Origin: a virus
Strand: one strand, 5' to 3'
Virus record (IMG/VR): IMGVR_UViG_3300044620_000202
Coordinates: 1 to 34,847 of that record
DNA: 34,847 nt
Positions 1,799-27,715 of the stretch are shown here, piece after piece. A model generated the notes under the pieces. It saw nothing but the letters and a program-made list of their open reading frames with translations. It made no database searches and was not told the DNA's origin. How positions within the stretch are numbered: position 1 is the first letter of the stretch; each line of letters begins with the position of its first letter. The translations under genes and the position numbers were made by a program.

Positions 1799-2023
1799 TT
1801 ACAAAGAATTAAGATAGGTAATCGCCTCAATAGCATCATCAAATTGATTGCCATTAAAACTAAATTGCTCCAAGTTAATCAGCCATACTCCCTGATCCGT
1901 TGGTACGTGCATCGACTTAGCATCAACAAAGTCAATCTCAATGCGGTTATAGTTAGTAGCTACTTCACCAATCACTGATGAGGTGTACGATAGTTGACTT
2001 GCATCAATAGTTATGTCGATCAT
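1799..2023 (-). CDS. Small virion-region protein of unknown function
   Basis: A 74-aa acidic protein (MIDITIDASQLSYTSS...). It is not recognised. Its start codon overlaps the stop of the large fibre gene by 4 nt (ATGA), which supports translational coupling to the fibre. The sequence alternates short beta-like stretches (RIEIDFVDAK, VWLINLEQFSF) with a C-terminal helix (DDAIEAITYL). A fibre-associated or accessory tail role is inferred from position only. Confidence 0.65.
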   Translation of the reverse strand: MIDITIDASQLSYTSSVIGEVATNYNRIEIDFVDAKSMHVPTDQGVWLINLEQFSFNGNQFDDAIEAITYLNSL

Positions 2024-4641
2024 TTGATTTCAATTTGATAGTAAGATAGCACAGTTGAATCACCGTTCGCTCCGTTCTGAATAGCGAAGATAAGATATTG
2101 ATTAACCGTCCAATCGATATTGGAGTTGGTCAGTGTCGCATTACCTACACTTGCATCCGTTTGGATCGAAGCATTAGCCTGAGCAGTTTGCGTTACCGTT
2201 GCCGATTTGACAATCGCAGAACGATCCATCCCGTTATACACTTGACCGATTGAAGCAGTAGCAGATGTGATTATCAAAGTAGGTGCAGGAGTTACAATAG
2301 AATCGGCAGTGTTGGCATACACTCTCAAGGTAGTGATCCCTGCACCGCCCGTCTTGCCTACCCTTGCCTTGATCTCTACGATTGCACCAACTGTTATCGT
2401 ATTGGCAGGGATCAACACACTCACCACCTTGTTATTATTGGTGTTGCCCGTTACTGCCGTTTGATTGTTTACATCCTTGTAGATCAATGGCAAGGATGGG
2501 AAGGTAGCCAATGATCCATCGCCTCGCACATACTGAGAAGTCGTGCCTGATGGCGTGTTAAACTTGCCATTGAATGTTGACCAATCCCCACTACTTAAAG
2601 CCCCTCTATTGGATGCTGATGCGGTTGGTAAGTTAAAGGTGTGAGTGCTGCTTGCCGAGCTAATGCCGAAGTCCGTGCCAGTAGTACCCGTTGCGAAGTT
2701 TTGCACTTGGGCTGTTAAGCCGTTCAATGCGTTAAGCCCTGTGGTGAATGTTGTGATTACTTGGCAAAGGTTATTGTCCTCAGTATGCAGCGTTATGTTA
2801 CGCCCCGATGTGGTTACGAAAATGCGTACTGCGAGCCTATCAGTTGCAGCCAATACTGTCGAAGGTACTGCAAGCGCACTAACATACAAATCGACCACCG
2901 TGCCGCCTGTAATCGCTTCTGGATTTGTTGACCCTGATGAGATTAACGTAAAGGTTGCGCCATCGTACTTGTACAGCTCCATGTAAAAGCTCGGATTGCC
3001 GCCGCCACTTGATGCGTTAAAGTAGGTTTCAAAGTTCCAATTTCCTGAAGGGATTGCCAATAGATTTGGGTCGCCTGCATCCGTTATGAATTGCGCAATG
3101 TAGCCATTGCCTTGCGCATTTGTGCGTGTCAAGTTCGTACCACCTCCAAGCACTGGAGTGCGGCTCATTTGAAAGTAAGCATTGCCTCCAATCGTGCCTT
3201 GACTTATTGAGCCGTTGAGGTAATAGTTAACCGATGCGCCACCACCACCGCCCAAAGGAAAATTAGCCAAAGAGCCATCCCCTCGAACGTACTGGCTTAC
3301 AACTCCGTTTGCTGTTATGTCAACGCTTGGAGTAGTGGTTGAGTTAGGTACGTTAACGCTAAAGGCTGGATTTGTCGGGTTCGGCACAGTTGCCGCAACC
3401 GATGTAACAGTACCCGTTGGAATTGTCGGGAATGGTTGAGGTGCGCCCGTTCCATCAAGATAGTCCGTATTCGTTCCCGTTGGAACATCGAACTTGCCGT
3501 TAAAAGTTGACCAATCAGCACTATCTAAATATCCATCAGCCGATGCCGTTGCTTGCGGTATTGCAATATCAGGATTTCCACCGCCCGAAGATGTTAATGG
3601 TGCTGTTGCCGTTACTGATTCAACAATAGTAGAAGGTAAAACGGGGATCGTTGGTTTATTCAGGATCTCAGCCACTCCACTTACAGCATTCCAATCAGAG
3701 TTTACTTGTGCTGCTGGAATGGTTGGCTTATTCAAGATCTGATTGTTGCCACTTGATGAGTTCCAATCTGATGGCTGTTGCACAGTCGGAAAGCCTGCAC
3801 CTAAATTAACCCAATACGTTGCATTAGTTGGAAGGATCGAATCATTGGCAGCGATGCAGCGGTACACATTGCCATTATACCAAACGATGTTACCTACCGC
3901 ATAAGCGTTACCCGTAGCAGCCAAGTGATCTGTGGTAAATGGTAAGGCAATCAAAGCACCACCACCACCACCGCCACCAATGGCGATCAATGGATCTCCT
4001 GCTGTACCGTTTCCGATAATGGTAATGCCATCCACAGCAACCTCAGTCAAGCAAGGATTGCAAGGCAAGAAGTCAGGCAGCGGAATATCGCCCGTAGCAC
4101 AAGTATCGTAGCAGCCATCTTCAGAAGAAGTCAGCACGTTAACATCAATATCAATGCTCACACAAGCCCACTCATAATTCGCAGTTAGGCTCTTGATCTC
4201 GTTAACATATCCGTTCGGCACAACTTCATAAGCAACAACTCCGATGGCTGTCTTGAATTGTGGATCTGATCCTGACACCAAGCGCAGAACTCTTGATGCA
4301 ATCCAATCCTGAGCATCGGCAGAATCACAAGGCAGATGATCCTTTCTAACCACCGCATAAGCACTCAGAGTGAACTTAGTTTCATAAAGCCACTTACACC
4401 CTGCCAACTTTAGAGATTCGTTCTTAGAAACGCTTATTTTGCCACGCTTCGCCCAGAAGATTGTGCCTTGCTTCGCATCGAAGTTGGTAACGGGAATAGC
4501 CTGCCCATTTCCGATGTAGTGAATCCACGCTTTGTCGTTACCATCAGCAGACAATTCACAAAGCCCGTAGATCTGATCGAAGATATTGCCAGCCTCAACT
4601 CGTTGATTCAGCCGTTCGATAATTGTGGAGAGTAGATTCAT
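2020..4641 (-). CDS. Large tail fibre / receptor-binding protein
   Basis: An 873-aa mosaic protein. Residues 1-170 form a distinct N-terminal domain (LLSTIIERLNQRVEAGN...), perhaps a neck or tail attachment domain. A Cys-rich linker and a poly-Gly stretch (about 220-228) follow. Residues 235-280 resemble a CBM5/12-type carbohydrate-binding fold (YAVGNIVWYNGNVYRC). Fibre repeats come next: ILNKPTIP twice (about 305 and 325), DWSTFNGKF twice (about 375 and 695) and QYVRGDGSLA twice. The C-terminal half is beta-rich. It probably binds host surface glycans. The start overlaps the upstream gene by 4 nt. Confidence 0.8.
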   Translation of the reverse strand: MNLLSTIIERLNQRVEAGNIFDQIYGLCELSADGNDKAWIHYIGNGQAIPVTNFDAKQGTIFWAKRGKISVSKNESLKLAGCKWLYETKFTLSAYAVVRKDHLPCDSADAQDWIASRVLRLVSGSDPQFKTAIGVVAYEVVPNGYVNEIKSLTANYEWACVSIDIDVNVLTSSEDGCYDTCATGDIPLPDFLPCNPCLTEVAVDGITIIGNGTAGDPLIAIGGGGGGGALIALPFTTDHLAATGNAYAVGNIVWYNGNVYRCIAANDSILPTNATYWVNLGAGFPTVQQPSDWNSSSGNNQILNKPTIPAAQVNSDWNAVSGVAEILNKPTIPVLPSTIVESVTATAPLTSSGGGNPDIAIPQATASADGYLDSADWSTFNGKFDVPTGTNTDYLDGTGAPQPFPTIPTGTVTSVAATVPNPTNPAFSVNVPNSTTTPSVDITANGVVSQYVRGDGSLANFPLGGGGGASVNYYLNGSISQGTIGGNAYFQMSRTPVLGGGTNLTRTNAQGNGYIAQFITDAGDPNLLAIPSGNWNFETYFNASSGGGNPSFYMELYKYDGATFTLISSGSTNPEAITGGTVVDLYVSALAVPSTVLAATDRLAVRIFVTTSGRNITLHTEDNNLCQVITTFTTGLNALNGLTAQVQNFATGTTGTDFGISSASSTHTFNLPTASASNRGALSSGDWSTFNGKFNTPSGTTSQYVRGDGSLATFPSLPLIYKDVNNQTAVTGNTNNNKVVSVLIPANTITVGAIVEIKARVGKTGGAGITTLRVYANTADSIVTPAPTLIITSATASIGQVYNGMDRSAIVKSATVTQTAQANASIQTDASVGNATLTNSNIDWTVNQYLIFAIQNGANGDSTVLSYYQIEIK

Positions 4642-6263: not shown

Positions 6264-6271
6264 CAAAGATA
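6264..6271 (-). promoter_or_regulatory. -7 promoter box for the gene at 5198-6244
   Basis: The minus strand reads TATCTTTG (TAnnTTTG), directly after and touching the T-tract of the capsid-gene terminator, with the start codon 20 nt downstream behind an A-rich leader. A clear -33 TTTG is not seen; the position it would occupy is the terminator stem. Confidence 0.55.
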
Positions 6272-6296
6272 AAAAAAGGGAGGCACTAAGCCCCCC
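6271..6296 (-). terminator. Rho-independent terminator of the major capsid unit
   Basis: On the minus strand GGGGGGC (6296-6290), loop TTAGT and GCCTCCC (6284-6278) form a 7-bp stem with one G-U pair, followed by seven T residues. It begins two bases after the TAA that ends the -1 frame extension of the capsid gene (6299), so it fits that reading frame better than the zero-frame stop 80 nt upstream. Confidence 0.85.
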
Positions 6297-6298
6297 TC

Positions 6299-6382
6299 TT
6301 ATTCGGTTATCAGATTATCAATTCCGTCTTGGGTTAACAGTTCAAGATCATTCTGAGTGATCAAGTCTGCTAACCCGATTAC
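6299..6382 (-). CDS. -1 frame C-terminal extension of the major capsid protein
   Basis: After a -1 slip at AAACCCG the reading frame continues GTA ATC GGG... for 27 codons (VIGLADLITQ, then a segment with LLTQDG and LITE) to a TAA at 6301-6299. The frame has no ATG between its upstream stop (TGATAA, about 6433) and this end, so it is unlikely to be a separate gene; a TTG start giving 21 aa is the only alternative. The repeated LITQ/LLTQDG/LITE pattern resembles C-terminal tails of phage structural proteins. The extended product would be 374 aa. T7 gp10A/10B is an established precedent for a minor frameshifted capsid form. Confidence 0.65.
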   Translation of the reverse strand, partial: VIGLADLITQNDLELLTQDGIDNLITE

Positions 6383-6388
6383 GGGTTT
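6331..6388 (-). promoter_or_regulatory. Programmed -1 ribosomal frameshift signal in the capsid gene
   Basis: On the minus strand the last two sense codons and the base before them read A AAC CCG (6388-6382), a perfect X XXY YYZ heptamer in the zero frame, followed directly by TAA. After a 5-nt spacer (TAATC), GGGTTAGCAG (6376-6367) pairs with CTGTTAACCC (6340-6331) in a 10-bp stem with one G-U pair. The 26-nt loop holds a further GATCA/TGATC pairing. Heptamer, spacer and stem match the standard bacterial -1 frameshift layout. Confidence 0.7.
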
Positions 6389-7422
6389 ACAATCGACACG
6401 CAGTTTACGTAGTTCACACCAGCATACTTATCAGATGCTTCGTAGATGTCAGTTGGAAGAGTTACGATCTTGCCTGTTGTGGTTAATACAATCGACAAGC
6501 TACCGCAGTCATCCTTCATCGTCAAGTCAACTGGCACACCAGCAGGAGTGAATACCTGAGTCTTGGTGTAGTTAGCACCAGCAGCAGGAGTGATTCCTGC
6601 ATTCCACTCAGCAAGATTGAATGACAACCATTGGATCGCTCCAGCAGTTGTTACCAATGCTTTGCTTTGGCTTCCTTGTGCAGCAGCCAAACGAGAATCG
6701 TAAGCGAATCCAAAACCGTTTTGCTGTGTGATAGCCAACAAGTCAATGCCATACTGAGTGCAGCAGCCAGCAGCCATTGCATTAGCATAACGCTGCATTG
6801 CAGCACCACCGAAAGCAATCGGAGCAGCAGGATAGTTCGCCATTCTTGTTGCTTGCTGAATGTCAGCGATAGCGAAAGCGTTAGGCTCGTTAGTTCCAGC
6901 CATTGTTGAAATCACCAAGCAATCAGAAGTTACAGTGTAGAAACCTTCTACTTCAGTTCCCCAATTACCAATATTAGCAACCGCTTGAACCGCAGCAACA
7001 GAAGCCACCTTGCGATCAATAACATCCATCAATCGCATAATTGACTCAAGAACATAACGGCTATTCTCTTGGCAATGGCGAGCGATGTCAGCAGCATTGA
7101 TAACTTGAGATGCTGTGTAGGTATCATCAGTATCTACTGTGTAAGTAGTTGTTGAATCACCGTAAGTATTGGTCGATGTACAAGTAAGGATGTCAGCACC
7201 CTCCTCTACTTCTGTTTCAGGCAAACGCTGAATCCAACGTGCTTGAACTGTTTTTAATTTACCGTTTCCAGAAGATACTTCTGTGCGGATTAGTTTTGAG
7301 TTTTCAGGTGAAAGCAAGAACTCCAAGAAAGGAAGTTGCTCACGCTGACCTACCTCGATAAATAGTTCAGATAAGGACATCTGAACATTAGGGCATTCCG
7401 AAAGAATACGTGAAATTGACAT
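6379..7422 (-). CDS. Putative major capsid protein
   Basis: A 347-aa protein (zero-frame product) called from size, position after scaffold and portal genes, and its own strong-looking transcription unit. The sequence is Ala/Thr-rich, with a long helix NAADIARHCQENSRYVLESI (about residues 108-127), like the spine helix of HK97-fold coat proteins, and beta-rich flanks. It is bounded by terminator-promoter pairs on both sides and has a structured leader, as expected for the most abundant virion protein. The 3' end carries a -1 frameshift signal, so a minor 374-aa form is predicted. No family match could be run. Confidence 0.75.
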   Translation of the reverse strand: MSISRILSECPNVQMSLSELFIEVGQREQLPFLEFLLSPENSKLIRTEVSSGNGKLKTVQARWIQRLPETEVEEGADILTCTSTNTYGDSTTTYTVDTDDTYTASQVINAADIARHCQENSRYVLESIMRLMDVIDRKVASVAAVQAVANIGNWGTEVEGFYTVTSDCLVISTMAGTNEPNAFAIADIQQATRMANYPAAPIAFGGAAMQRYANAMAAGCCTQYGIDLLAITQQNGFGFAYDSRLAAAQGSQSKALVTTAGAIQWLSFNLAEWNAGITPAAGANYTKTQVFTPAGVPVDLTMKDDCGSLSIVLTTTGKIVTLPTDIYEASDKYAGVNYVNCVSIVNP

Positions 7423-7520: not shown

Positions 7521-7528
7521 CAAAGATA
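7521..7528 (-). promoter_or_regulatory. -7 promoter box for the major capsid gene
   Basis: The minus strand reads TATCTTTG. Upstream, TTTG occurs 12 nt away (TTTTGTA...) and a second TTTG 17 nt away, inside the T-tract of the preceding terminator. The TTTG-N12-TATCTTTG arrangement with an internal GATTC is shared with the promoter at 24367. It predicts a leader of about 90 nt. Confidence 0.6.
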
Positions 7529-7546: not shown

Positions 7547-7574
7547 AAAAAAGCCCACACAATTAGTGCAGGCT
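7547..7574 (-). terminator. Rho-independent terminator upstream of the capsid promoter
   Basis: On the minus strand AGCCTGCAC (7574-7566), loop TAATT and GTGTGGGCT (7560-7552) form a 9-bp stem with two G-U pairs, followed by a T run. It ends the portal-to-7596 operon just before the capsid promoter. Confidence 0.85.
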
Positions 7575-7595
7575 CTCAGTTATTGGTTGATTGTA

Positions 7596-11651: not shown

Positions 11652-11728
11652 TATGCTACCGCTTTAGTAGATGGTTTGTCGATTATGTTAGAGCCACAAC
11701 TCCTAGTTCTGCAATAGTTCGGTTTCAT
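11651..11728 (-). CDS. 25-aa micro-protein between glycosyltransferase and portal
   Basis: A tiny ORF (MKPNYCRTRSCGSNIIDKPS, then TKAVA). Its ATG overlaps the stop of the upstream glycosyltransferase (ATGA) and its TAA overlaps the portal ATG (TAATG), the same junctions used by real genes here. CRTRSC could be half of a zinc knuckle. It may be a true microprotein or a translational bridge keeping ribosomes coupled into the portal gene. Function unknown. Confidence 0.55.
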   Translation of the reverse strand: MKPNYCRTRSCGSNIIDKPSTKAVA

Positions 11729-12396
11729 ATCAATTCAATTAGTTGTTGATGTTTTGATTGGAGGTAAAGCATATGATTTACTTCATCCTTCCACAGTGCA
11801 TTTGATTGGATCTTTGCATCTCCTATGTGATTGCAGATGTCATTAGGATGTGCAAGCAAGAACATATCAATGCCATTCTTTGCACAGTGTACAGCCATCT
11901 GCATATCATTGTAATTAACTCGCTCAAATTCCATCTGCCTAAGGTTTAGCACTTGCTCATTCCAAATTGACAAGCCAACACCAAGTCGATGGCATTTAAT
12001 ATCCTTGTCAAACTTTGTCCAAGATTCTAAACTTGTCCAGCCCTTACGATAGTCTTGATTGTTTAGGTATTTGAATCCCCAAAAAGAGCCGATAGCATCA
12101 GGATTTCTGCAAAGCCCATCTAATGCAGTTTCAATGTATTTAGGTGAGGCAATAAAGTCATCATCAATTATTAGGTTGATATGATCACCGCAGTTTTTAA
12201 TTCTTTCAGCAGCCCCTTTGTTGGTGGTGTTGCGAACATAGTTGATCTCAATCGCACTCTTAAAAAGATGATCGAATCCCTGCAATATTACAGTGATCAA
12301 ATCAGGCTTGACAGTTTGCCTATTGAGTGAATCAATAAGTCTCTGTGCCACGCTGATGCGATTAATTTGAACTGCTATGTTAACCTCTATGCTCAT
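11725..12396 (-). CDS. Glycosyltransferase, GT2-like (GT-A fold)
   Basis: A 223-aa protein with the GT2 plan: an N-terminal beta-alpha unit (VNIAVQINRISVAQRLIDSL, then NRQT), the NKGAAERIKNC segment like the family N-x-G-x-x-x-A-x-N motif, and a metal-binding IIDDDF (D78-D80). The later part holds an ND-rich acceptor region (RVNYNDMQMAVHC). It should transfer a sugar from a nucleotide-sugar donor; the acceptor is unknown. It is the last member of a GT-methyltransferase-GT cassette in the structural operon. Its stop overlaps a 25-aa ORF. Confidence 0.8.
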   Translation of the reverse strand: MSIEVNIAVQINRISVAQRLIDSLNRQTVKPDLITVILQGFDHLFKSAIEINYVRNTTNKGAAERIKNCGDHINLIIDDDFIASPKYIETALDGLCRNPDAIGSFWGFKYLNNQDYRKGWTSLESWTKFDKDIKCHRLGVGLSIWNEQVLNLRQMEFERVNYNDMQMAVHCAKNGIDMFLLAHPNDICNHIGDAKIQSNALWKDEVNHMLYLQSKHQQLIELI

Positions 12397-12403
12397 TGTA
12401 ATG

Positions 12404-12976
12404 TTATCGTTGAACCAATGCCAAGCCTCTGCCCTCGCTTGTGTTTAGCGTGATTACATTGTACTTGTAATGGTTTGCGTATTTCATCAACTCTGCCACA
12501 TCTTTCATATGAATAGCATCGTGGTAAGCGATAACGCCAGTCTTTGAAATAATACGCTCAACTTCTTTGAACTCTGGTAGGATGTTAGCCCACGAATGAT
12601 CTCCATCAACGAAGATAAGATCAAAGAACTCAGATTCAAATTGTTTAATTACGCTAATCGACTTGCCCATCAATAGATCAACTACAACGCCATCCTTTTT
12701 AAGCACGTGCTTTCTGTGATTGGTGATGTCATTGCCAACATAGTAGCTGCCGTTCGGCATTGCCTCAATCATCTTGATAGATGTTTCGCCCTCAAACACT
12801 CCGATCTCTAATACTCTTTTCGCTCCAGTCATTGAGATTAACGCAGCAAGGAAATCAGCTACATCAACTTCGCTATTCCAACCGTGCCTCTGTGGCTGTG
12901 GTTCTGCTGCTTGTGGTTCGATTGCTTGAACTTTTTTAGGTCTGCCTTTCTTAGGCTTATCTTCTTGGGTCTGCAT
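12404..12976 (-). CDS. Class I SAM-dependent methyltransferase (Methyltransf_24-like)
   Basis: A 190-aa protein. SAM-binding motif I is VLEIGVFEGE (about 55-64), the acidic loop of the second strand is near GNDITNH (81-87) and the family motif IFVDGDHSW (121-129) is followed by VIAYHDAIH. Enzymes of this type often methylate sugars or small molecules and are common in glycan clusters. The N-terminus is a basic tail with an AT-hook-like KKGRPKK, then a P/Q/A linker. The flanking glycosyltransferases suggest it methylates a sugar. It overlaps the upstream gene by 20 nt. Confidence 0.85.
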   Translation of the reverse strand: MQTQEDKPKKGRPKKVQAIEPQAAEPQPQRHGWNSEVDVADFLAALISMTGAKRVLEIGVFEGETSIKMIEAMPNGSYYVGNDITNHRKHVLKKDGVVVDLLMGKSISVIKQFESEFFDLIFVDGDHSWANILPEFKEVERIISKTGVIAYHDAIHMKDVAELMKYANHYKYNVITLNTSEGRGLALVQR

Positions 12977-13907
12977 ATTTATTGTCTGTTATTCGGTGAA
13001 TGAAATATTTATGTTGCTTGCCTTCGTCCTTCATCCAAGACTTTAGCAATCGATCCATCCAATCAATGTAAAAGGTTGGAGTAAATCCCTTACCGCCATA
13101 GTAAGATTGGAAGTAGTATTGATTTGTAACATCTCCAAAGGATAAGCCTCTGACCATTGCAAAGTGAATATAACCAATCTCTGCGCTGCCGTTGTGTCCT
13201 ACATCAGTAACCGCTGGATCAAGACCTAACTTAGCCAGTGCGCAATTCATATACAACTCATCAGGCTGACCGCCTCCCCACTTGCTTCGTAGCTTGTTCA
13301 ATGGGATCGGGTTATTGATTAGGTAGTCTTGTGCAATCTTATAGAGTGCTAATGCCTTAGCTGACTTCTCAATGTATTGAACCGAACTGTTTATGGCTGG
13401 CAATACTGTTGATTCATCAAACTTATAATGCGCCCAGATGTCATCAGCATAAGCCCACTGCATTGAGTCAATCTTGCGCCCTTGATCGATGGTGTGATAG
13501 CCTACCGTATGGCTTGCGTAAGGCTTGCCAAGTGCTACCAACTCATCAATCATTGGCTGAATGTCTTTTAATGCCACAGCATCTACATCAAGATAAACAT
13601 TCTTGTCGTAGGGAAGGTAATCGTAAAGATGCACCTTCGCCTTTGCTGGATCTAACTTCCTGTTGGTGTATAAGTGATCCTTATCAATTTCAATGAAGGT
13701 ATCAATCACCTCGTAAAGATCACCGCAATACTTGTCTGCGTCCTTTCTTGATTCGATCAAGCAGGAGATCTGAATATCTTTATTGAATCGCTTAATTGAA
13801 TAGGCGATGTTGTAGGCTGCCCAATAATATTGAGGTCTACCAAACGCCATAAGCACCACCCCAATCGAGGCAGTGCTTTGGCTTTGTGGTTGTGTTGCCT
13901 CTGTCAT
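12957..13907 (-). CDS. Glycosyltransferase, GT8-like (GT-A fold)
   Basis: A 316-aa protein. VYLDVDAVAL (D107-x-D109) is the metal and nucleotide-sugar binding DxD motif, in the KNVYLDVD context typical of GT8-like enzymes. The start is a Rossmann-like strand (IGVVLMAFG) after a Q/S/T-rich N-terminus, and a GGQPDELYMN motif around residue 220 fits an acceptor/donor site. It is the first gene of the glycan cassette, joined to the preceding tail gene by a TAATG overlap, so it is expressed with virion genes. The substrate is unknown. Confidence 0.8.
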   Translation of the reverse strand: MTEATQPQSQSTASIGVVLMAFGRPQYYWAAYNIAYSIKRFNKDIQISCLIESRKDADKYCGDLYEVIDTFIEIDKDHLYTNRKLDPAKAKVHLYDYLPYDKNVYLDVDAVALKDIQPMIDELVALGKPYASHTVGYHTIDQGRKIDSMQWAYADDIWAHYKFDESTVLPAINSSVQYIEKSAKALALYKIAQDYLINNPIPLNKLRSKWGGGQPDELYMNCALAKLGLDPAVTDVGHNGSAEIGYIHFAMVRGLSFGDVTNQYYFQSYYGGKGFTPTFYIDWMDRLLKSWMKDEGKQHKYFIHRITDNKYADPRR

Positions 13908-16173: not shown

Positions 16174-18161
16174 CGGAGGATCTCGTTAGACTTTAGTACA
16201 AATTTAGCGTTTTGACGGATAACGGAATCTACTTGCATCGTTTTAATGTAGCCATCGATTACCGCCAATGAATCCTCTGTGCGCCCTAACTCAATCGGTG
16301 ATGATGTTTGGTTGATGATGGATGTGATCTCATTCATTGATAGTGGTCGCTCGAACTCATAAAGGAAAGATCTAATATCATCAACATTAACTGCTTGCAA
16401 CTCTTCAGGATTGAACGGCTGACCTTCAATGGTGAATCTCATTGTTTCGTCTGTTGTCCACACAGACACATCGACTTGGGGTATGTAGGTAATATCAAGC
16501 ACGATTCCACTTACATCGCTTCTGATTATATCGCCAACATTACAAACCAACTGAGTGCTAACTGTTAAAATTCCAACTGCAAAAGGTGCAGGAGTTTCAA
16601 CTGTTGATTCAACCCTTGCAACCTCAGTATCTGTGTTATCAAACTGGATAACTATTGCTTTGAATGATGCCGAACCTGAGTAATTATTATCAATGATAAA
16701 TACCTCATAGCGAAGAAACACATTGTAGATACCCGCTTGTTGAACGATATACTCTTTACCGTTAAAGTTTACATTCGGAGTTAGTATTACATTCCAATCG
16801 TAATAATCTCCAGTCCATTGTTGAAATGAAGTGTATGCCGTTGAAATGATTTTCCAATTAAGGTTTGGTGATAACAATGCAGAAGCATCAGAAAGTGTAT
16901 CAACTGGATTAAATGGCTGCTCTAAGAATGAAAACAATGAATTAGGGTAACCGTTTATCCATCTTGCCGATACCTCATCATTTGTAAAGCCTCCATTGTA
17001 AACGCTCTGACCAATCCCATAAGGATCGTACTTCCTTGATCTAAAGAAAGGCGTAATGCCTCCAACATAATCAACTTGAATTATTATGTTGTTCAGATCA
17101 TAGCTATCAGCATCGAATCGAATAATATCCTCGATCACATTGGTGTCGAAGATAATATCAGGTGATTCAACATTGAGGATGTTTGAAGTATTGCATTCGC
17201 CAGTAAAGCCAAATCGTTCCTTCCTGAAACCTCTAAATGGCGTTTGAATAAATGTCAATGTCTGAGGTGGATCGTTCTGAGAACTTGATTCATTTGCTTC
17301 CAGAACTGGATTGCTGCCGAACTGAACGGCTGCATAAATCTTTTGAGTATCGAATCTAAATTCAATATTCGGCTGATCCAACAGCGATGCTGATTGATTA
17401 AGTTGGTAGAAGTATTCAATAGGCTCGATCCTGATCGCAGGTCTGTTGTTTCCCTGCTTAACAAATCCAATCCCCAAATTGTACTTGGCTTTAAGGTTTG
17501 AATACAGTTGCTCAAAAGAGATAACCGTTTCAATATCCTGATTGGTTCTTATTGACCGCCCATTCGTTACGCAAATGGTATCAAAGTCGGCAGGCATTGT
17601 AAAGAACAAGTCAGATTGAAAGTCTACGAGGTTGTCGCTCATGCAGCCTACCAAGTGAGTAAAGGCATCATAAACAGAAATGCCACGCCCTGCATCAAAG
17701 TAACTTGCAGGCAAGGCAGGATTATACATCGTTAGCAATCTTCTCGCAGGAGGCACGATTGGCTGAAGGTTTTTGGTAACCGTTCCACTCAAAGAGAATG
17801 GAATGCCTTTGTTGTTGTTGATCTTAGTTGAGAATGATTCATCGTATAGCTTGGTCTTAACATTGCACCTATCTAAATCAAATACCGATTCAGTTACTAC
17901 AATATACCCATCGACTAATCTTGCCCATGTTGATTGACATAAGTATTGAACTTGAACCTTAACCAACTGGCAGAAGCTACGATCAACAACCTTGTTGAAT
18001 AAATACTGATAGGCAGTGCCATCAAAGAATAGGTCATTGTTAAATGATACTATCCTTGCTCCTATTGAATCATCTTCTGCAATGGCAAAGCCAAAGTCCT
18101 CAGGGTTCAATGGCTGACCTCTATCAAGCCCATCTAAAAGAAATTTGATTTCTATTGCCAT
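16170..18161 (-). CDS. Tail tip / baseplate-like protein
   Basis: A 663-aa protein immediately downstream of the tape measure, overlapping it by 10 nt. This position usually encodes distal tail (Dit) or tail-associated (Tal) proteins. The beginning MAIEIKFLLDGLDRGQPLNP and the segment VKVQVQYLCQSTWARLVDGY suggest a beta-rich ring-forming domain. No peptidase or lysozyme motif is visible. Assignment is by position and size. A 4-nt overlap couples it to the next tail gene. Confidence 0.6.
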   Translation of the reverse strand: MAIEIKFLLDGLDRGQPLNPEDFGFAIAEDDSIGARIVSFNNDLFFDGTAYQYLFNKVVDRSFCQLVKVQVQYLCQSTWARLVDGYIVVTESVFDLDRCNVKTKLYDESFSTKINNNKGIPFSLSGTVTKNLQPIVPPARRLLTMYNPALPASYFDAGRGISVYDAFTHLVGCMSDNLVDFQSDLFFTMPADFDTICVTNGRSIRTNQDIETVISFEQLYSNLKAKYNLGIGFVKQGNNRPAIRIEPIEYFYQLNQSASLLDQPNIEFRFDTQKIYAAVQFGSNPVLEANESSSQNDPPQTLTFIQTPFRGFRKERFGFTGECNTSNILNVESPDIIFDTNVIEDIIRFDADSYDLNNIIIQVDYVGGITPFFRSRKYDPYGIGQSVYNGGFTNDEVSARWINGYPNSLFSFLEQPFNPVDTLSDASALLSPNLNWKIISTAYTSFQQWTGDYYDWNVILTPNVNFNGKEYIVQQAGIYNVFLRYEVFIIDNNYSGSASFKAIVIQFDNTDTEVARVESTVETPAPFAVGILTVSTQLVCNVGDIIRSDVSGIVLDITYIPQVDVSVWTTDETMRFTIEGQPFNPEELQAVNVDDIRSFLYEFERPLSMNEITSIINQTSSPIELGRTEDSLAVIDGYIKTMQVDSVIRQNAKFVLKSNEILR

Positions 18162-21007
18162 AGGTAACGAGGATCTGATCCGTTAATGTTCACCACTGTT
18201 GATCTGCCTTTAAGATCCTTGCGAAGCCCTTTGATCTCTTTCTCCATTGACTTGCTGTTAAGCGATGCGTTCACCGTTACGTTTGCACCTTTGTTCTTAC
18301 TTGCAAAGTCTAATAATGCAGGGCGAACATAACGCTCATCCACATACTTCTTGAATGCTGCTGATGATCTGTTCATCGCATCAAGAGCATCCCGATGGCG
18401 AGCCACTGATGATCGGTTAACCACATACTCGCCTTTCTCTGCTTCGATCATTGTACCTCCAGCCTCGTGGCTTTGACCTCCAACCATACCACCCTTTTTG
18501 AATCTTGGAATTGGTCTTGATGCGATTGCTGCGATCTGAATACCTCCGATGATAGCAGCAGCAACTTGGAATGGAATTGCTTGCGGATAACCAAGATTAG
18601 CACCAGTCTTAACGATTGATGATGCTGTATTGATTGCTGCTTCAAAGATTGCTATCGCCTTATCTCTCTTGGCTTGCTTTTGCTTTTCAGCAGTGATGGC
18701 TCGACTTGTTCTAAGTTCTAATGCTTCCCTCTGTCTTGCCTTTTGTTTTTCAGTTTCTGATGTATTGTTTATTGCAGCAAGTTCAACATCTCTCACCAAT
18801 TCAATGTTAGCAATTCGATTCTCGGATGCTTGCTGTTGGAATTCAAGCAAACTGTTTAACACTTCAAGTGTTTGGTCTGCAATCTCAAAGGCATCGTCAA
18901 TAGTTTGATCTCTTGTCTTTTTACGCTCCTCACGAATGGCTGCTTCCGTTTCTGCATTGATCAACTCGATAGCACTGGCTCTTTCCTTCTCATCTTTGAT
19001 TGAATCCGTTGCTGCCTTTTTACGTGCCTCACCTTCAAGTGTAATCAAACTAATTCTGCGGTCTAAGCTACTGCCCTGCTCAATCTCTAATGTCTTGATG
19101 GTATTGATCTCGGCATTGAGTTGTGATGTTGCTATCTGCTTGTTAATCGCTTCGATCTGTGGCGCATACTTGTTAGCGATGTCAACCTTGCTCTTTCCAA
19201 GTTTGTCGGCTGTTTCAAGTTCAAGAGTTTGCTGTGTTTGTAATGCTGTTAGTTGTTGTTGAAGCGTGGCATCTGCCCCTGCCTTGCTCGCCTCTAATTG
19301 CTTTTGTAGGCTCTTTTCAAGTTCTGATATTTCAATCGCTGTAATCTGCTTTGCTGCTTGCTCCTTGATTGTTAAAATTGCTTTGTCTAATTCTTTCTGT
19401 GCTTGGATTTCTTCTTCTGATCCTTTTTTGAAATTAGCCTCTCTGAACTTTTGTTCTAATGCTCGGATCTGATTGTTGCTCTGTTCAAGGATCTTACTTT
19501 GCTCATCCAACTGGCTGACAAATGCTTCATTCTCTAATGCGATTAATTGCTCACGTGCTTTGAGTTGATCTTGTGCTGCTTTCTCGGCTGCTGCTTTGGC
19601 TTTGTCGGCTGCTGCTTTTTGTCTTGCCTCTCTGTCAGCTAAAAGCTTTTGCTCGGCTTCAGTTAACAATCCTGCTCCTTCTTCGATTATTGCAGCCCTT
19701 TCAAATTCCGCTTTACCTAAGTTAACAAGCTTTTCTGCCTGTGATTTCTTTTGAATTTCAACATCCCTCTGAGCATCTTTTGCTCTTTGATTGTTAAGTT
19801 TTTCTGCTTCTTGGCTTAAATCAACAACACTGCTTGCATACAGATCCACAAAACTTGCAGTTGCCTTTGTAGCAAATGCAAGCACCCTATCACCTATGCC
19901 TCGAACATCCTCTTCACTTGCCGTTGCTGCTTCTGCTGATAAGACTGCCGCTTGTGCAAACAATGCTTGTGCTTTTGCCCTTGCTGCTGTTGCTTCAATA
20001 TACGCATCTTTTTTCTTGATGTAGTTCGCCTCTGCAACATTTAGATCGTTAGTCTTGCCAAATGTACCTCCAAGAGTTTCGTTGTAAGTAAGTAGTGCCT
20101 CCTCTTTAGAGATCACACCTTTACGTGCTAATTCAAATGCAGTGCCGACCTTAGTTGTTTCTTCAATCGCTCCACCTAATGCAGTCTTAACATCACCCAA
20201 TGTGGCATCCAATGCTCTGGTTGTATCACTCGTTCCAAGAACTGCATCCTTCAACTTATCGAAATTTGCTATCAATGCCCCGATTGCGATAACCAACAAT
20301 CCAACTCCCGTAGCTGCTAATGCTATTCTAAAGGCTTTTAACGCACCCGTTGAGTTTCCAACAACTAAAGCGTAGGCTGCTTGTGCTTTGGTTTCTATAA
20401 GAGTCTTAAGTGTGCTTTCTTCTTTTAACAATACTGCTGCTTGCTGCACACCATTTGCAATCGCACTGATGGCTGTGGTCTTGGCAATTATCTTTTGAAG
20501 ATCCTCGCTCTCTGATCCAAACAATGCAGATGCACCTTGTGCTATTTCAAAGCCAGCAGCAAGACCTTGTGTGGCATCTACTGCTGCATCGAACTTGAAT
20601 GTGTCTGATGCAAGATTTTTAACCCTTGCCCTTGTATCTCCGATCTGATCTTCAAGTCTTGCTGCTTCAAGGATCAACTTCTTAAATTCTTCAGTACCAC
20701 CCTTGCCTGCTTCTTCAAGTGCGTTGAGGTCATTACGCAATCCACGCAATACTCTTGTTAATGGTACGCCCTTTTTGTTTAGATCATCGAATGCTTTGTT
20801 CTGGTCGGCAAGTGCTTTCTTAACTTCTGTGCCTGAGAATGCTGCTGCGATGCTCTTGCCTGCCGTCTTATAAACATCGGCTACCTTCTTAGAACTATCT
20901 TGTGCGGATGCAACAACAGCATCATTCGCCTTATTGACTTCGTTAACCGTATCTTTTAGGCTAGCTGCTTGAGCCTTGTAGATAATTTCAACTTCTGCTG
21001 CTGCCAT
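18152..21007 (-). CDS. Tail tape measure protein
   Basis: A 951-aa, alanine- and lysine-rich helical protein with long coiled coils (about residues 410-560 and 640-760) and a hydrophobic segment near 225-245 (ALAATGVGLLVIAIGALIA). The C-terminal part contains GGMVGGQSHEAGGTMIEAEK, then GEYVVNR, a motif frequent in Bacteroidetes phage tape measures. It sets tail length; at about 0.15 nm per residue the tail would be roughly 140 nm, indicating a siphovirus. Its start is overlapped by 20 nt by the -1 extension of the tail chaperone gene. Confidence 0.9.
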   Translation of the reverse strand: MAAAEVEIIYKAQAASLKDTVNEVNKANDAVVASAQDSSKKVADVYKTAGKSIAAAFSGTEVKKALADQNKAFDDLNKKGVPLTRVLRGLRNDLNALEEAGKGGTEEFKKLILEAARLEDQIGDTRARVKNLASDTFKFDAAVDATQGLAAGFEIAQGASALFGSESEDLQKIIAKTTAISAIANGVQQAAVLLKEESTLKTLIETKAQAAYALVVGNSTGALKAFRIALAATGVGLLVIAIGALIANFDKLKDAVLGTSDTTRALDATLGDVKTALGGAIEETTKVGTAFELARKGVISKEEALLTYNETLGGTFGKTNDLNVAEANYIKKKDAYIEATAARAKAQALFAQAAVLSAEAATASEEDVRGIGDRVLAFATKATASFVDLYASSVVDLSQEAEKLNNQRAKDAQRDVEIQKKSQAEKLVNLGKAEFERAAIIEEGAGLLTEAEQKLLADREARQKAAADKAKAAAEKAAQDQLKAREQLIALENEAFVSQLDEQSKILEQSNNQIRALEQKFREANFKKGSEEEIQAQKELDKAILTIKEQAAKQITAIEISELEKSLQKQLEASKAGADATLQQQLTALQTQQTLELETADKLGKSKVDIANKYAPQIEAINKQIATSQLNAEINTIKTLEIEQGSSLDRRISLITLEGEARKKAATDSIKDEKERASAIELINAETEAAIREERKKTRDQTIDDAFEIADQTLEVLNSLLEFQQQASENRIANIELVRDVELAAINNTSETEKQKARQREALELRTSRAITAEKQKQAKRDKAIAIFEAAINTASSIVKTGANLGYPQAIPFQVAAAIIGGIQIAAIASRPIPRFKKGGMVGGQSHEAGGTMIEAEKGEYVVNRSSVARHRDALDAMNRSSAAFKKYVDERYVRPALLDFASKNKGANVTVNASLNSKSMEKEIKGLRKDLKGRSTVVNINGSDPRYLWQ

Positions 21008-26048: not shown

Positions 26049-26741
26049 TTATTTGAAATAATCAAACACTTTTGCAATATCTGATCCAGCTAAATCAAAC
26101 CACTCACCTCTAATCCTTTTACTTGAAAACAAACTATGTAACTCTTTTTCATCTTTAACTCTTGCATCAAATTGATGGATTAATTCTATTGATGGCTTTT
26201 CTGATTGCAAAGTTTTCTCACGATAAAGCGGATTGTTTGATCTGCCTATCTTATAATAGCCAGTATTTTTATCAATCATAAGATACACTTTAGTAAATCT
26301 ATAAGATAAAGATTCAGGAGTTTTAACTGATTTAACTTCTATCAAGTTTGTAATATGTGTTCTGGCATCTGAAGCAATTTGCTTCAAATTGCAATCTAAA
26401 ACAAAGCCTAAAACTGTTGGCATAATTACATCCCATCTAAAGTCATTTAATGGAATAAAACGAGTATCTGATACTTTGAAATAATATGTGTCATCATCTA
26501 AATGATAACGACAATTGTAGTCATCGCATTTTTTTACATCGATTATCTGATAAATTCTATCTTTTTTAGGAAATAGCAATTTTATATCTGTTCTGTTTTT
26601 GTTAGACCAAGAAATAAGTTCTGCTTTTTTATCGTGTTTAAGTTTGTCTAAGTAGTTTAACTCTTCTTCAAACTTTTTAAACTTACCTATTAATTCCATT
26701 TGAGAAGAATCAAATCTGCTGCATAAATTTTGTTCGTTCAT
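26049..26741 (-). CDS. GIY-YIG/T5orf172-type (MUG113-like) protein
   Basis: A 230-aa protein. The C-terminal 85 residues (YLMIDKNTGYYKIGRSNNPL, EKELHSLFSSKRIRGEWF) match the T5orf172/MUG113 branch of the GIY-YIG nuclease superfamily. The N-terminal 100 residues hold a charged helix and a DNA-binding-like part (KKFEEELNYLDKLKHDKK). The gene is visibly more AT-rich than its neighbours, roughly 30 percent GC by eye, suggesting recent acquisition. It may be a homing-type or host-directed nuclease. Its start overlaps a 59-aa gene by 4 nt. Confidence 0.75.
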   Translation of the reverse strand: MNEQNLCSRFDSSQMELIGKFKKFEEELNYLDKLKHDKKAELISWSNKNRTDIKLLFPKKDRIYQIIDVKKCDDYNCRYHLDDDTYYFKVSDTRFIPLNDFRWDVIMPTVLGFVLDCNLKQIASDARTHITNLIEVKSVKTPESLSYRFTKVYLMIDKNTGYYKIGRSNNPLYREKTLQSEKPSIELIHQFDARVKDEKELHSLFSSKRIRGEWFDLAGSDIAKVFDYFK

Positions 26742-26932: not shown

Positions 26933-27715
26933 TTAATCAAATGCACAAACTTCACAAGGCTGTGTATCTGTTCCGAGCGAATCCCTGCCAAACTTTGTGT
27001 AAAATTCTGTCTTATCTCTACCCCAGTGCTTTTCAAGTTCATTACTTAGATCAATCGCTTTTTGCCAATAATCGGGAAAATGCTTTTTTACTTTATCGAA
27101 ATCACTGCTTTGCATATTCTTACAAGGCAGGCAATTGTTATGAGGAAAGGTTCTGCTTCCATCGGTGTTTTTGATGTCGTAAATTTTCGGATACCAACCT
27201 ATCTGTTTTTTTACAATCTGAAAACACCATTCGTTCTCCTTGTTTGAAATAGGGAAAGCCTTTGTTGTTTTGGTTTCAGGATTCTTTTTATGCATATTAC
27301 GAATCCTTCTTGATTCTTCTTTCACATATCCAACCAAGTCAACATCGATCCCGTTTTCTTTAGCATACTTCATCATTGGCTCAATCTTCAATATCCTTGT
27401 GCAAGGTGCAATGATTGGGTGAGGTATCATCTTTTGTTCTCTGAAAAATTCTAAAACGCTGTTATTGGTTTGTGAGTAAATCACATTCGAAAACTTTGTT
27501 TCAGCATAGGCAATGCCAGCAATAACGAAAGGCAAAGTGTCGGGTGAATGTTCGTAAAAGTGAGCGTAAAACAAATGCAGTTCTTTAGGCTTCAATTCGT
27601 CTGGATATAAAGCAAGGCAGCATAATACAGCCATTGAATTAATGCCTCCCGAAAGACCTATCAAAACTTTCTGTTGAGAATAGTCTATGTAATTGGTGAA
27701 TAGTTCTTGTTGCAT
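26933..27715 (-). CDS. PP-loop ATPase, PAPS-reductase-like
   Basis: A 260-aa protein of the PAPS reductase/ATP-pyrophosphatase superfamily. The PP-loop is LSGGINSMAV (22-27 SGGINS), where the usual Asp of SGGxDS is Asn. A second block (PCTRILKIEPMMKY) and Cys pairs NNCLPCKNM and PCEVCAF follow, probably metal-binding. Phage members are common but their chemistry is often unknown; proposals include nucleotide or DNA modification and sulfur transfer. No Dnd partner genes are present, so phosphorothioation is not supported. Confidence 0.8.
   Translation of the reverse strand: MQQELFTNYIDYSQQKVLIGLSGGINSMAVLCCLALYPDELKPKELHLFYAHFYEHSPDTLPFVIAGIAYAETKFSNVIYSQTNNSVLEFFREQKMIPHPIIAPCTRILKIEPMMKYAKENGIDVDLVGYVKEESRRIRNMHKKNPETKTTKAFPISNKENEWCFQIVKKQIGWYPKIYDIKNTDGSRTFPHNNCLPCKNMQSSDFDKVKKHFPDYWQKAIDLSNELEKHWGRDKTEFYTKFGRDSLGTDTQPCEVCAFD

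Follow-up and report, generated by a model that had tools for sequence, protein, structure and literature searches.

A probable -1 programmed ribosomal frameshift cassette at the 3′ end of a putative phage capsid gene

The 3′ end of a putative major capsid gene in the viral contig IMGVR_UViG_3300044620_000202 is very probably a cassette for -1 programmed ribosomal frameshifting that evolution has selected. The sequence-only reading of this contig had proposed such a cassette, and comparison with relatives strongly supports it through a conserved slip heptamer, selection on the -1 frame tail and covariation in the adjacent stem. Most ribosomes would stop at the end of the gene, and a minority would add a short acidic tail to its product.

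Layout of the cassette and its gene

The window, that is, the whole stretch of DNA analyzed (34,847 bp), carries the capsid-like gene on its minus strand (6379..7422) as a 347-aa open reading frame in the 0 frame, the 3′ end of which reads ATT GTA AAC CCG TAA. The heptamer A AAC CCG lies in frame at 6388-6382 (-), directly before the stop TAA at 6379..6381 (-), exactly where it had been placed; with AAC in the P site and CCG in the A site, the corresponding -1 codons are AAA and CCC. A 5-nt spacer that includes the stop (TAATC, 6381-6377, -) separates the heptamer from a predicted stimulatory stem, whose 5′ arm GGGTTAGCAG (6367..6376, -) and 3′ arm CTGTTAACCC (6331..6340, -) form 10 pairs, one of them G-U. 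An inner hairpin, GATCA...TGATC in this genome, occupies 6346..6362 (-), and the stem-loop folds at -20.2 kcal/mol (z = -4.4). The -1 frame stays open for 27 codons, VIGLADLITQNDLELLTQDGIDNLITE followed by TAA (6299..6382, -), running from GTA at 6382 to the TAA at 6301-6299, and would extend the protein from 347 to 374 aa (347 + 27). The predicted junction peptide ends ...VNPVIGLADLITQNDLELLTQDGIDNLITE and reads ...VNPVIG across the junction. An intrinsic terminator (6274..6300, -) begins at the stop of the tail, a G+C-rich hairpin and T-run being present in the relatives read. The positions of spacer and stem, the 374-aa form and the terminator adjoining the tail all agreed with the earlier description.

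Judging from how frequent stop codons are, we estimate that within the window alone a -1 frame would stay open for 27 codons about 1 time in 4; the chance of an X XXY YYZ heptamer at any particular pair of codons is about 1 in 256. Among the 48 listed open reading frames, the capsid gene was the only one that combined a heptamer directly before its stop with a -1 extension of at least 25 codons. A search for Rfam families found none at the frameshift site. That the cassette exceeds chance follows from the relatives described below, in which the heptamer is conserved, the -1 frame is under coding selection and the stem covaries.

Upstream of the capsid-like gene lie a portal gene (phrog_7376), a gene for a weakly Phage_min_cap2-like protein and a charged scaffold-like open reading frame. 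The 347-aa product matched nothing in Pfam, PHROG or PDB and nothing among isolate phages, and we thus infer the label of putative major capsid protein from gene order alone. AlphaFold2 models were poor (pLDDT 34-37 with 18 and 58 relatives as input), and Foldseek searches with them gave no significant match; their BFVD matches included one weak match to an HK97 capsid. The sole likeness to isolate phages lay in the portal, which matched that of Polaribacter phages P12002L/S at 23%. The gene at the putative capsid position of P12002L was considered as a counterpart and rejected, since it does not match the capsid-like gene of the window by profile. Searches of genome contigs for a host or prophage, based on the capsid alignment and on the terminase, found nothing. 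Together with TAnnTTTG elements, the weak Polaribacter phage portal match leads us to suspect a Bacteroidota host. The locus is not of the tail assembly chaperone (gpG/gpGT) type, the tape measure gene (18152-21007, phrog_3336) being more than 10 kb away.

The capsid gene appears to form a transcription unit by itself. Its probable promoter, TATCTTTG at 7521..7528 (-), matches TAnnTTTG, which we take to be the consensus of the Bacteroidota -7 promoter element. A terminator-like hairpin (7549-7577, -) precedes this promoter upstream of the gene, and a second copy of TATCTTTG (6264-6271, -) touches the T-run of the terminator at 6274-6300 downstream of it; the terminator-plus-promoter junction is also present in relatives.

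Several other genes were observed in the window. A tail-fibre-like protein (phrog_9729; 2020-4641, -) contains repeats of the type DWSTFNGKF...TSQYVRGDGSL.FP. A methyltransferase (PF01596/PF13578) between two glycosyltransferase-looking open reading frames without Pfam match forms a set (11725-13907, -) that sits between virion gene blocks. A T5orf172/MUG113 GIY-YIG-like protein (26049-26741, -), a PAPS-reductase-like protein (26933-27715, -) and, at the contig end (34300-34800, -), a short open reading frame with a His-kinase A domain (PF00512), unusual in a phage, were also found.

Tail, heptamer and stem among relatives

An initial scan of viral contigs for the capsid-like gene retrieved 209 relatives, and further scans were made with divergent members; capsid identity to the window was 67-100% in the aligned set. 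Collapsing identical 3′ ends left 165 distinct sequences, 125 with and 40 without a -1 frame tail. The sequence A AAC CCR was present within one codon of the stop in 119 of the 125 tail-bearing 3′ ends versus 4 of the 40 tail-less ones (Fisher p 1e-25, kinship ignored), counts that overstate independence because many loci are close kin. A capsid tree of 114 genes shows 8-10 changes in tail state; among independent pairs of relatives, the heptamer follows the tail in 5-6 of 8 and never goes in the opposite direction (median sign-test p 0.06). The tail was always in the -1 frame and ended just before the terminator. A check of the other frames in 25 tail-less relatives did not reveal it, and no relative was found to have it fused in frame to the capsid. 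Hence, of the two signs that the sequence-only reading had suggested looking for in relatives, the conserved heptamer was found and the in-frame fusion was not. That reading had also held that relatives lacking both the heptamer and the -1 frame would speak against it. Such relatives do occur, as the heptamer is absent too in 36 of the 40 tail-less sequences and retained in the other 4, yet joint losses do not refute the cassette: that heptamer and tail disappear jointly, and more than once on the tree, argues for a functional link between them.

Substitution patterns indicate that the tail evolves as protein, and in the -1 frame only. In that frame, dN/dS was 0.20 where the tail has 28 residues (54 sequences) and 0.29 where it has 27 (14 sequences); the two other frames gave values of 0.7-1.8 and contained stops in 68 of 68 sequences. 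Tail length, counting the shifted proline, stayed within 26-29 residues in all 125. The tails are acidic, with a mean net charge of about -5 and nearly no K or R, and consist of short LLxQ/E repeats (e.g., LLSQADED-LLTQDGLD-NLTTQ). Searches of Pfam and PDB with the tail gave no match, and PHROG gave a sub-threshold match only. Such a tail may confer an external or assembly-related function on a minor capsid form, for which the sequence-only reading had suggested display on the capsid surface. Three relatives (L401, L406 and L408) carry an unrelated tail of the FQFQSGEDFDFQ type (...FQDGFAFQFQSGEDFDFQ) behind the same A AAC CCG, here too followed by a stem, and L247 and L483 represent further tail variants; the tail seems exchangeable and the slip site constant. 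The second tail type of L401/L406/L408 reads QDGFDFQFQSGEDFDFQ, and the tail of L483 reads LLLENGDDLLLQNGD.

The stem was conserved as a structure, being maintained by compensatory change. When 35 sequences were aligned without gaps, 89.7% of cells across the ten pairs were paired versus 76.6% upon shuffling, and sliding the stem arms along the alignment left 24-48% of cells paired. Cells changed on both sides numbered 45 in this alignment versus 13.6 expected, and 0 of 500 shuffles reached the observed count. One stem pair appears as G-C, C-G, A-U and U-A among relatives. In 85 distinct sequences, whose arms show about 28 combinations, approximately 97% of cells at the five core pairs are paired, with core arms as different as GGGTC/GACCC, GCGTC/GACGC, AGCCC/GGGT, AGCTC/GAGC, GCTCC/GGAGC and GCACC/GGTGC, among others. 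The distance from heptamer to stem is 5 nt, or 6 nt if the first pair is absent, and the inner loop also pairs in relatives, less regularly. Because the stem arms lie inside tail codons, RNA structure and protein appear to be selected together.

Taken together, these patterns leave little room for two other accounts of the locus. One holds that the -1 frame is open by chance and that the hairpin acts in transcription or in stabilizing the mRNA. A 27-codon open frame is by itself not improbable, the hairpin lies just upstream of a terminator, and tail-less relatives thrive without the cassette; purifying selection specific to the -1 frame, with both other frames closed in 68 of 68 sequences, is nevertheless unexpected for a non-coding element, as are the heptamer-tail linkage and the control of codons within the heptamer, which makes this account extremely unlikely. 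We also consider it very unlikely that the tail is read otherwise, whether because sequencing or assembly broke the frame of a fused gene, or through a +2 slip or termination-reinitiation. The identical -1 offset recurs in 125 distinct sequences, not one of which shows an in-frame fusion, and this argues against an error. A +2 slip would arrive in the same frame, but it would not need A AAC CC. Reinitiation cannot explain the tail, which the upstream frame must feed, since ATG, GTG and TTG are absent from the first nine tail codons in 43 of 68 sequences and these have no start codon near the junction.

Codon choice and the proposed slip event

The cassette would work as follows. Most ribosomes would translate ...V AAC CCG and stop at TAA, releasing the 347-aa protein, while a minority would be held by the stem-loop 5 nt downstream of the heptamer. 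In these, both tRNAs would slip one base back in tandem, tRNA-Asn from AAC to AAA and tRNA-Pro from CCR to CCC, so that the ribosomes would bypass the stop and add 27 residues, yielding the 374-aa protein. We thus envisage a slip that is ribosomal, tandem and partial.

Codon choice offers an internal comparison, as the V-N dipeptide occurs three times in the final 12 residues of the capsid protein. Of 82 tail-bearing genes, 79 use xxA-AAC for V345-N346 at the slip site; in the same genes, V336-N and V339-N are so encoded in 2 of 82 and 15 of 82, respectively. Among tail-less genes, xxA-AAC was found at the V345-N346 site in 7 of 25. Furthermore, all tail-bearing genes with an N-P ending used CCG or CCA for the proline and none used CCT (0 of 86), which is the commonest proline codon of the capsid genes (50% of them). 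This preference for CCR may owe something to selection on the second residue of the tail, V or I encoded by RTA, as CCT would give L. In seven relatives, one sense codon (TCA, TCT or GGC) intervenes before the stop; all seven retain the full heptamer and the same spacing from heptamer to stem, indicating that an adjacent stop is not essential.

The strong retention of xxA-AAC at V345-N346 is what a tandem slip demands, and the full heptamer in all seven relatives with a displaced stop likewise speaks against a simpler event in which a single peptidyl-tRNA-Pro in the P site re-pairs from CCR to CCC at the stop (C CCR TAR), with AAA helpful and not required. In favor of such an event, no element other than CCC R at the slip point was shared by all tail-bearing sequences. 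Five relatives (L197, L203, L271, L437 and L438), which belong to at least two lineages, read GTC CCG TAA and keep both tail and stem; as they cannot re-pair in tandem, the step of tRNA-Pro from CCR to CCC is the sole one common to all and would be the minimal event. In L043/L049/L050, an upstream -1 stop restricts the slip to GTC or CCG. In addition, tRNA-Pro(UGG) is naturally slip-prone, though this was demonstrated for +1/+2 shifts (PMC4519876). Against single-tRNA slippage, C_CCR tetramers are weak in E. coli, with C_CCA and C_CCG giving 1.8-3.6 fold over background (PMC4066793). On balance, we regard slippage of a single tRNA as rather unlikely. The NVP variant (GTC CCG TAA) was observed in two capsid lineages, L043/L049/L050 and L237/L238, with stem and tail retained.

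Tandem slippage at A AAC CCR would itself be unusual in its chemistry. The sequence-only reading had remarked that AAACCCG is not a standard slippery sequence, and data from E. coli bear this out, such sites being weak or below threshold (PMC4066793). Even with the strong IS3 pseudoknot, A_AAC_CCA fell below threshold as one of the three of 64 heptamers that were not shift-prone (Sharma et al. 2014, PMC4066793); A_AAC_CCG was not among the three negatives, and CCN codons were weak (PMC4066793). Since E. coli data rate A_AAC_CCA as not prone to shifting and CCR as poor in the A site, slip efficiency in the host may be low, and either the tRNA-Pro of the hosts differs or a low slip rate suffices. 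More tentatively, it is conceivable, and worth taking seriously even if we would not count on it, that the cassette represents an undescribed proline-driven -1 frameshift, in which CCR to CCC before a stop is efficient in the hosts, which are probably Bacteroidota, but inefficient in E. coli, AAA is dispensable and the site serves as a docking point for exchangeable capsid tails.

Comparison with known frameshifted capsids

Our search of open-access papers found no earlier report of the window's capsid cassette. If it functions as predicted, frameshifted capsids, so far a handful, would gain a large family of 125 distinct sequences with at least two unrelated tails. The site conflicts with the slip rules derived from E. 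coli, in which Y = C with a final purine is rated poor, and the better-pairing CCT is avoided here; should the site be efficient in its host, the rules of frameshift predictors would be too narrow. Sister phages with and without the tail would furthermore provide a natural experiment on the role of a minor extended capsid form.

Among the closest parallels are gene 10 of T7 (10A/10B) and gene 10 of T3, in which a -1 frameshift occurs at the end of the major capsid gene (PMC5009743). As in these phages, the predicted product is a minor, C-terminally extended form of the putative capsid protein. The extension of T3 gene 10 is Ig-like, whereas the present one has 27 residues of acidic LLxQ/E repeats, in which a Pfam search found no Ig-like domain. 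In T7, a distal CCCC in the terminator is reported to be involved (PMC5009743), in contrast to the present A AAC CCR site, next to which lies a covarying stem-loop. Frameshifted capsid and tail genes are also known from Listeria phages A118 and A500 (-1) and PSA (+1), and the tsh genes of Listeria phages likewise use proline codons before the stop, CCC_UGA (PMC5009743). However, the shift at the Listeria proline sites is +1 at CCC, unlike the -1 slip from CCR to CCC proposed here, which would take place within an X XXY YYZ heptamer followed by a stem-loop. In Orsay virus and its relatives, a frameshift at the capsid end gives some subunits a protruding extension (PMC5009743); Orsay virus being an RNA virus of nematodes, this is an analogy only. 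The arrangement of an in-frame heptamer, short spacer and downstream hairpin is shared with the X XXY YYZ sites of dnaX and IS3/IS911, from which the present site differs, as from classical bacterial sites of this kind, in having Y = C and a purine as Z. By these comparisons, the cassette is expected to work like the known frameshifted capsids, from which its slip site and its apparently exchangeable extension set it apart.
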